Assembly: GCF_003065385.1 (NCBI RefSeq)
Contig: NZ_CP023277.1
Coordinates: 1,644,889-1,708,888 of the forward strand
Length of the DNA stretch: 64,000 bases
Direction of reading: 5' to 3'
DNA from: Polynucleobacter acidiphobus
GTDB lineage: Bacteria > Pseudomonadota > Gammaproteobacteria > Burkholderiales > Burkholderiaceae
Part shown: positions 39,978-41,119 of the stretch, in pieces
Layout of the letters: each line of letters begins with the position of its first letter
Position numbering within the stretch: position 1 is the stretch's first letter
Notes under the pieces: model-generated
The model's input: the letters and a program-made list of their open reading frames with translations, nothing else
Told to the model about the DNA's origin: nothing
The model's database searches: none
Position numbers and translations under genes: made by a program

Positions 39978-40132
39978 GATTACTTTCAAATTGTTTGGTC
40001 AACACACTCCAACTCAGAAATCGCACTTTGGCTCCGCTTATGTTTGCAGGCTCGCAGATCAGATCCCTCAATTGGTCCAACAAATTACCGCTGACCGAAT
40101 CGGTAATTCAGTAAAGCATTGAATTGTATATC
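39978..40132 (-). promoter_or_regulatory. rplM leader region with a stem-loop
   Basis: No ORF fits here. AATTACCG at 40083-40090 and CGGTAATT at 40101-40108 form a perfect 8-bp stem with a 10-nt loop in the likely 5' leader of rplM-rpsI. A TATACAAT-like -10 on the minus strand sits at about 40124-40131, next to the upstream terminator. Ribosomal protein leaders are often autoregulatory, but I cannot assign a known class to this one. Confidence 0.35.
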
Positions 40133-40161
40133 AAAAAAAACCCGGGAATCAATCCCGGGTT
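40133..40161 (-). terminator. Intrinsic terminator upstream of rplM
   Basis: AACCCGGGA (40139-40147) pairs with TCCCGGGTT (40153-40161) around a 5-nt loop; on the minus strand it is followed by a run of Ts (complement of 40133-40140). It terminates leftward transcripts before the rplM promoter. Confidence 0.85.
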
Positions 40162-40204
40162 GAAATCCACCAATGTTTGGGTGGAGGAGACATCAGTAGA
40201 ATGC
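40133..40204 (-). ncRNA. Candidate small RNA with anti-Shine-Dalgarno motif and intrinsic terminator
   Basis: On the minus strand a possible promoter (TTGATT at 40236-40241; TATATC at 40211-40216 or TGTATA at 40213-40218) is followed by about 72 nt that hold, in order, an unpaired TCTCCTCC stretch, a hairpin (TCCACC/GGTGGA, 8-nt loop) and a 9-bp GC-rich terminator hairpin with eight Us. No protein-coding gene on this strand ends here: upstream lies only antisense of the OsmC gene and, 600 bp away, rnpB. A short C-rich anti-SD region next to a Rho-independent terminator is the usual layout of trans-acting sRNAs. It could instead simply be a terminator shielding rplM from rnpB readthrough. Confidence 0.45.
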
Positions 40205-40393
40205 AAACTTGATATACAAAGAACGGCTTTAAGTAAATCAAGGTTGACATCAATGGAGAAATTTTAGGACTAAATCTTGTGCATTGCAAGAAAAAATTTG
40301 GGTTTACCCTATCTTTTATATAAGACTTATAGGCCCATTTTTTGGTTTAACGTATTGATTTAAATAGAAATATTATTATTTGAGGATTTTTAT
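40205..40393. other. AT-rich intergenic region before the OsmC gene
   Basis: No reading frame of note on either strand. It holds the putative leftward promoter described for the candidate sRNA, a rightward TTGACA at 40244 without a good -10, and a TATATAAG box at about 40319-40326 that could serve the OsmC gene with a TTGGGT -35. TTGATATACAA at 40209-40219 is the exact inverse of TTGTATATCAA at 40124-40134. Confidence 0.4.
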
Positions 40394-40819
40394 ATGATGG
40401 AATGCAAAATAAACTGGTTGCCTGATGCTGGGATGGCGTTTATGGCTCAGACGGGTACAGGCCATATCCTCAATATGGATGGTGCCCCCGAGGCTGGCGG
40501 AAATAACTTAGCGCCTCGCCCCATGGAACTCTTACTGGCAGGCGCCGGGGGTTGTACAGCCTTTGATGTGGTTTTAATCCTACAACGCTCCCGTCAAGCC
40601 GTGAGCGGCTGTGAAGTGTCTGTAAAAGCCGAGCGCGCAGAATCCGATCCTAAGGTATTTACCAAAATGAATCTGCATTTTTTGGTGAAGGGCTCTAACT
40701 TAGATCCTAGTAAGGTGGAACGGGCGATTGCACTATCTCACGACAAGTATTGCTCAGCCACTGCAATGCTTGGCAAAACAGCAGAAATTACCTATAGCTT
40801 TGAAGTAGTGCAGAGTTAA
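40394..40819 (+). CDS. OsmC-family protein (YhfA-like)
   Basis: The 141-residue protein has the OsmC fold with reactive cysteines in GAGGCTAFDVVLIL and HDKYCSATAML, the pattern of the YhfA branch (thiol/peroxide-related, physiological substrate unclear). A second ATG at 40397 is equally possible. A GAGG Shine-Dalgarno lies about 10 bp upstream. Its last codons and stop overlap the 3' strand of the P1 helix of rnpB, encoded on the other strand. Confidence 0.88.
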   Translation: MMECKINWLPDAGMAFMAQTGTGHILNMDGAPEAGGNNLAPRPMELLLAGAGGCTAFDVVLILQRSRQAVSGCEVSVKAERAESDPKVFTKMNLHFLVKGSNLDPSKVERAIALSHDKYCSATAMLGKTAEITYSFEVVQS

Positions 40820-41119
40820 CCGATAAGCCGGATTCTGTCGCCCTAATTTGCATTAAGGGGCAATCATTCCTCTAGGCCTGCAGTTACCTACAGGCTCAAG
40901 CTCCCTACCCGCAAACTCGACGGGCCATGTCAACATTTGCTTACTTGGGATTGCTCCGAGTGGAGGTTGCCGCGTTTCACCGTAACTCAATACGCTCGTC
41001 TCTGTGGCCCTATTCCGCACGTCACCGTGGATGGCTGTTAGCCAACACCCTGCCCTATGGAGTCCGGACTTTCCTCTCCTTTCTTACGAAAGCAGCGATT
41101 GCCTGGTTAACTCTGCGAT
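40807..41119 (-). ncRNA. rnpB: RNase P RNA (bacterial type A)
   Basis: On the minus strand the conserved elements appear in order: AGGAAAGTCCGGACTCC and ATAGGGCAGGGTG (CR I region), the GGTGAAACG segment, GGTAGGGAGCTTGAGCC, CTAGAGGAATGATTG and ACAGAATCCGGCTTATCGG at the 3' end. The ends are set by a perfect 12-bp P1 helix: 41105-41116 pairs with 40810-40821 (exact ends are approximate). It processes tRNA 5' leaders. It begins about 40 bp after the pyrC stop; I found no strong separate promoter, so some transcription may come from pyrC. Confidence 0.95.

Follow-up and report, generated by a model that had tools for sequence, protein, structure and literature searches.

The 64,000-nucleotide stretch of Polynucleobacter acidiphobus DNA analysed here (the window) carries a small RNA (sRNA) gene next to rplM that, judged by its sequence, extends a known kind of sRNA to a new genus, the freshwater Polynucleobacter. 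The explanation that best fits the whole of our results, and in which we have good confidence, is that this RNA corresponds in Polynucleobacter to the double-hairpin sRNAs ncS27 of Burkholderia and S17 of Bordetella, which belong to Rfam family RF02278.

Family and structure of the sRNA

A cmscan search against Rfam places RF02278, "Betaproteobacteria toxic small RNA", at 40132-40192 on the minus strand (53.3 bits, gathering threshold 50), with the model aligned to the sRNA over its full length (1-64). The initial annotation, which had recognized no named family at this site, was wrong in that respect; its description of an sRNA that would act in trans through an anti-Shine-Dalgarno (anti-SD) seed draws support from both the family and the structure. 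Specifically, the sRNA has two hairpins, the second being an intrinsic terminator, and its likely short form opens with a CU-rich anti-SD sequence. Other Rfam families were ruled out, as ar14 (RF02344; 27.2 bits vs. a threshold of 58.8), anti-hemB (RF02837; 26.8 vs. 49.5), SorX (RF02784; 20.8), ylbH, NsiR1, and SSRC8_2 all score far under their cut-offs. With the alphaproteobacterial ar14, anti-hemB, and SorX, the CU-rich motif and/or the terminator is the source of the weak matches.

The RF02278 match is the sRNA core and likely the stable short form. It begins with Site 1, the seed UGUCUCCUCC (40183..40192, minus strand), which is conserved in the genus and runs into hairpin 1 (40166..40185, minus strand), where fold and alignment pair UCCACC with GGUGGA over 6 bp (40185-40180 with 40171-40166). 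The terminator (40133..40161, minus strand) consists of a 9-bp stem (40161-40139) and eight U (40140-40133). The minus-strand hairpins, U tract, and C-rich motif first noted from the letters alone are thus borne out in their coordinates, and also by folding: the segment 40132-40205 (minus strand) folds at -26.9 kcal/mol (z -4.1), and 0 of 200 shuffles fold as well. In this 74-nt fold, the UGU of the seed is also in weak pairing with upstream bases. When the predicted 122-nt transcript is folded (z -5.03), UGUCUCC is unpaired and UCC opens hairpin 1.

Among 125 distinct sequences from the order, pairing is kept in 95.4% of paired cells, and both sides of a pair have changed in 238 cells, compared with 72.5 in shuffles. 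These changes affect 8 of 9 pairs in the terminator and 2 of 6 in hairpin 1, meaning that the covariation support comes almost wholly from the terminator, while hairpin 1 is nearly invariant. Seed columns 1-11 are invariant in 47 distinct genus sequences, although the collecting word TGTCTCCTCCA fixed these bases.

This pattern bears on the insulator proposed initially, a terminator that stops readthrough from rnpB into rplM, taken here as an insulator only, with the C-rich motif incidental. The RNase P RNA gene rnpB (RF00010, 241.9 bits; 40808..41114, minus strand) does lie upstream on the same strand. However, the motif and hairpin 1 stay nearly invariant while the terminator drifts by paired substitutions, and a genus-consensus promoter is found between rnpB and the sRNA. 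We rejected the insulator on this conservation pattern, and regard it as extremely improbable. The initial annotation had also named a conserved terminator accompanied by an unconserved motif and first hairpin as the pattern that would count against an sRNA, and the alignment has the opposite: motif and hairpin 1 are kept and the terminator sequence is what varies.

Conservation and gene order in Polynucleobacter

In the genus Polynucleobacter, which the NCBI taxonomy places in the Burkholderiales, Betaproteobacteria, 155 of 186 genomes and 137 of the 144 good ones have RF02278 matches, a few of these being decayed or divergent copies. We entered 148 genus loci, 3 of which were dropped for want of the exact word TGTCTCCTCCA, while in the other 145 this word is followed by a U-tract. 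Downstream of the sRNA, rplM is present in 144 of the 145 (tblastn start 203-236 nt from the seed start), and the complete order rnpB-osmC-sRNA-rplM-rpsI is found in 131. The remaining 14 include loci truncated by contig ends and five without an osmC match. Contigs named Polynucleobacter share the neighbourhood of the window, with rplM identity of up to 97.9%; in the window it consists of an OsmC-family gene upstream on the opposite strand (PF02566; 40394..40819, plus strand), and, downstream on the minus strand, rplM (L13, PF00572; 39552..39977) and rpsI (S9, PF00380; 39147..39539).

Fifteen genus genomes with no hit, a weak match, or a missing motif were rescanned. Two of them (G065 and G069) carry rplM-linked sRNA copies that the collecting motif had missed, and a third (G174) has a copy at a contig end. 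In the one-contig genomes G066 and G084, the rplM-linked sRNA has a changed seed and adjoins an osmC whose match is split in two, which suggests decay of both sRNA and osmC. No rplM-linked copy was found in G098 (complete, one contig), G059, G139, G143, or G146, where there is a divergent element away from rplM or weak matches only. The rescan returned weak matches only in G167, and nothing in G056, G089, G161, and G179 (90-180 contigs).

Several Polynucleobacter genomes harbor a second, divergent sRNA-like element (loci L351-L353, L355, and L357-L359) with UGUCUCCUCGGUACC or a sequence near it, a hairpin, and a GC-rich terminator. No rplM is present in the stretch fetched around it.

Predicted promoters of the sRNA and of rplM

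The promoter listed by our scan upstream of the sRNA (40261..40289, minus strand; 9/12) has a -35 TTGCAA (40289-40284), a 17-nt spacer, and a -10 TAAAAT (40266-40261). The consensus of 144 aligned genus loci upstream of the seed reads TTCTTGCATTGCAC..TA.AAT, with 70-90% agreement per column and some small clades that differ. The proximal sigma70 promoter initially placed about 10 nt upstream of the sRNA appears neither in the scan listing nor in the genus consensus, and this distal element is there instead. Because the conserved promoter sits further upstream than the proximal one, transcription probably yields a primary RNA of about 120 nt (about 122 nt, 40133..40254, minus strand, with the start set by the distal promoter).

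A -10-like TANAAT follows the U-tract within 16 nt in 144/144 genus loci, and therefore rplM probably has its own promoter in Polynucleobacter. In the window, the probable rplM -10 is TACAAT (40123..40128, minus strand), immediately 3' of the U-tract. It is so near the U-tract that the DNA of the sRNA terminator would overlap the rplM -35 region (40123-40152, minus strand). The rplM leader also contains a hairpin, TTACCG-N10-CGGTAA (40085-40106, minus strand), whose arms are exact in 92 of 144 genus loci and which is a possible L13 leader element; a second CGGT nearby could pair alternatively in the window.

The probable separate rplM promoter matters for a rival reading, according to which the RNA is the terminated leader of rplM-rpsI. 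The conserved upstream promoter would then also drive the operon by readthrough, and the sRNA would be a product of premature termination, with or without a role in trans. Besides the TANAAT element, the strength of the terminator argues against such a leader; evidence from outside the order, on both sides, is given below.

An sRNA with a single anti-SD site

As reported in the S17 preprint, the first loop of S17 contains another anti-SD site (Site 2), which belongs to its described mechanism. Site 2 was not found in the hairpin-1 loop of the window sRNA (CAAACAUU; 40172-40179, minus strand, from the alignment). Of the 145 genus loci, most (136) have a loop of the AAACA type; CUCC is retained in 4, and the remaining 5 have a different, CU-containing loop. 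By contrast, CUCC or UCCU is present in the loop of 66 of 78 distinct non-Polynucleobacter sequences. The other 12 are without it and, as far as these loop sequences tell, the loss of Site 2 is not confined to Polynucleobacter. In the named-locus set (at least 118 loci, 80 with names), only the loop is informative, because the search pattern fixed Site 1 and the stem. One anti-SD site would thus be in use across most of the genus, with the loop site lost. A small-genome freshwater genus with mostly a single, one-site copy would be a clean system for the effect of an anti-SD seed alone.

Predicted targets in the same genome

For transcript ends, processing, repression, and targets we infer the following. 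Transcription from the sigma70 promoter at 40289-40261 would continue to the terminator and give an RNA of about 122 nt, and cleavage just 5' of UGUCUCC, by analogy with S17, would probably leave about 60 nt as a stable form. With Hfq, whose gene is present in the genome, the single-stranded seed would pair with the extended Shine-Dalgarno (SD) sequence GGUGGAGGAGACA of selected mRNAs and block their translation, chiefly in genes for uptake and catabolism of organic substrates.

The seed-based target prediction proposed in the initial annotation was run on the sRNA's own genome. We used three patterns, each joining part of the Site-1 complement to a downstream ATG, with backward patterns as controls, and obtained 6, 8, and 8 matches vs. 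1, 4, and 0. Apart from the sRNA itself, the matches to the three patterns fall at 15 distinct places. Nine of these places start a frame of 100 aa or more, and six start no long frame. In all nine candidate frames, 8 nt or more complementary to Site 1 precede the ATG. Three of the nine are TctC receptors, out of a genome total of seven (hypergeometric 2.8e-6, assuming 1850 genes, and calculated post hoc on few sites). Five others are L23, a dienelactone hydrolase (DLH), a carboxymuconolactone decarboxylase (CMD), PhoU, and P-II, and one, recognized by eye, is presumably DsbD.

Predicted pairing at the three TctC sites is -22.0, -16.2, and -15.8 kcal/mol. Of the other four TctC genes, one reaches -16.0 kcal/mol and three are weak (-7.2 to -10.9 kcal/mol). 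The strongest gene site, GUGGAGGAGAC-CUAAU-AUG, pairs at -22.0 kcal/mol. Two places that start no gene (L309 and L311) nevertheless pair as well as this best gene, at -22.6 and -22.5 kcal/mol. The CMD, DLH, P-II, and PhoU sites (-12.8 to -13.3 kcal/mol) are no stronger than the best of 60 window genes (-13.0 kcal/mol), whose start codons were picked by our own rule. The TctC signal agrees with the roles in transport described for ncS27 and S17.

An alternative, which we consider quite unlikely, is that the RNA mimics the 16S anti-SD sequence and acts as a general brake on ribosomes, slowing many mRNAs with no defined target set. Members of RF02278 are toxic on overexpression, just 1 of 8 homologues retains the best target site, and several predicted sites are, as noted, no stronger than ordinary genes, all of which would fit a brake. 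Yet the stretch kept within the order exceeds the SD complement, with UGU before and ACC after it (the collecting motifs fixed part of this stretch), and 0 of the 60 window genes reach -14 kcal/mol. In addition, according to the S17 preprint, deletion of S17 altered a limited gene set, with 91 or 92 genes upregulated (the text and the abstract differ), 70 of them with complementarity near the ribosome-binding site, and S17 is not similarly toxic in Escherichia coli BL21.

rplM-linked relatives outside the order

We take the GTDB arrangement to be one in which the Betaproteobacteria form a single order inside the Gammaproteobacteria, so our "same class" loci are gammaproteobacteria outside the beta group. 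RF02278 matches at E up to 1e-3 occur in 103 of 369 class genomes; 100 of these lie outside the order, and their matches are all below the cut-off. None of 14 named control genomes has a match at E up to 1e-3, and six have weak ones in a laxer search (E up to 0.1).

We examined 103 places outside the order, leaving out 8 that were second copies or at contig ends. Of the 103, 67 lie immediately 5' of rplM-rpsI in the same orientation, with the tblastn rplM start 90-691 nt downstream; they represent 41 families, and 66 of them have the anti-SD word. The chance of such adjacency for one place is about 2.5e-4 under a 3-Mb assumption. Another 28 places have the anti-SD word and no rplM downstream (3 of them at the end of a contig), and the remaining 8, lacking both, are probably false. 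Within the fetched stretch, coq7 is found upstream in 20 of the 67 rplM-linked places. No Rfam family called the class-level sRNAs in the 30 loci scanned. A covariance model was built from 62 sequences, 41 of them from class-level rplM loci (R2; a previous model, R1, was dropped, as hairpin 1 did not appear in its automatic structure), and it matches in 163 of 369 genomes. As a held-out test, we took the 20 best-scoring R2 places that the RF02278 search had not listed: 13 are upstream of rplM and 7 are without it. The core common to class-level relatives is CUCCUCCAUCCUCCUUUGGUGG plus a covarying terminator.

Adjacent double or triple RF02278-like matches were also seen, at G464:C3:217943-218301 (weak-looking), G485:C3:141779-142057, G378:C27:1129-1336, and G346:C83:5201-5393.

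That these RNAs so often adjoin rplM far outside the order, in the main set as in the held-out places, is what the terminated leader of rplM-rpsI would lead one to expect. So is the distribution of promoter scores: in the 140 nt upstream of the sRNA, the mean best score is high (9.8/12 vs. 7.9 in shuffles; 66 class-level loci), and in the gap between sRNA and rplM it is low (8.3 vs. 7.7; 67 class-level loci). A class-wide promoter regular expression, for which the spacer was ill chosen, matched 8 loci only. Against a leader, rplM is not downstream in 36 of the 103 class-level places, the Burkholderia paralogues ncS03, ncS05, and ncS62 adjoin other genes, and S17 is placed by the preprint between a glycosyltransferase gene and coq7, not at rplM. 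Overall, we hold the leader to be unlikely, and continue to favor a counterpart of ncS27 and S17.

Literature on RF02278 in Gammaproteobacteria and on sRNAs near rplM, coq7, and rplM-rpsI contained, among the matches listed, no report of an RF02278-type sRNA at rplM outside the order. As far as the literature was searched, this apparent deep, rplM-linked conservation, read from sequence, is the new part of our results, and a family named and published as betaproteobacterial becomes a candidate for a regulator of deep conservation, left uncalled by Rfam in the loci scanned outside the order. A broader idea, to which we give low credence, is that of an ancient gammaproteobacterial RNA tied to rplM-rpsI, in which one strong promoter would yield either, on termination, an anti-SD sRNA that shuts down uptake and catabolism or, on readthrough, L13 and S9. 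If true, ribosome synthesis would be coupled to substrate uptake, and a link of the sRNA to ribosomal-protein synthesis is now within reach of test.

Comparison with known anti-SD sRNAs

The gene order osmC, (coq7), sRNA, rplM, rpsI makes the window sRNA the positional counterpart of ncS27 and S17, and its own neighbourhood is that of these two RNAs: osmC, (coq7), sRNA, (rplM). In an order-level set, 87 of 127 loci have the sRNA, a few of them from Polynucleobacter; the other 40 failed a motif-plus-U-tract test and, by look, are mostly chance matches. Of the 87, 69 have osmC upstream, and 24 have rplM at most 1 kb downstream. For example, the order is osmC, sRNA, small gene, rplM at a B. aenigmatica locus, and osmC, coq7, sRNA in a Bordetella locus, which agrees with the published position of S17 beside coq7. 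The ncS27 interval is BCAL3348a to BCAL3349, and BCAL3348 is listed with ribosomal-protein genes. The main text of the S17 preprint makes no mention of Polynucleobacter, osmC, synteny, or rplM.

The sibling sRNAs NmsRA and NmsRB of Neisseria resemble the window sRNA in having anti-SD motifs and, as their authors describe, in down-regulating metabolism genes. They differ in being a tandem pair, and their paper does not mention rplM.

Likeness is closer with the double-hairpin RNAs of B. cenocepacia. ncS03, ncS05, ncS27, and ncS62 share the seed, the two-hairpin layout, and the terminator with the window sRNA, and ncS27 also sits in the osmC-rplM interval. Their loop is an anti-SD loop, however, where the window sRNA has CAAACAUU, and B. 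cenocepacia J2315 has four copies, whereas the window genome and most listed genus genomes have one match. ncS27 is reported as a processed RNA of 92 nt, whose overexpression slows growth and whose silencing speeds it up. Both ncS27 and S17 have been studied as repressors of transport and catabolism genes.

S17 has Site 1, the hairpin 1 stem, and the osmC side of the locus in common with the window sRNA, and differs from it by the Site 2 loop, which is missing here. The likeness extends to the promoter: the Bordetella locus has a -35 context, CTTGCAT.GCAC, like that of Polynucleobacter, CTTGCATCGCAC is common to it and the Polynucleobacter genus promoter, and the -35 published for S17 is TTGCAT. 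By analogy with S17, the window sRNA would have a long form that is probably processed. S17 is synthesized as a 190-nt RNA, S17L, that RNase E cuts to 67 nt according to the preprint, compared with a predicted precursor of about 122 nt for the window sRNA.
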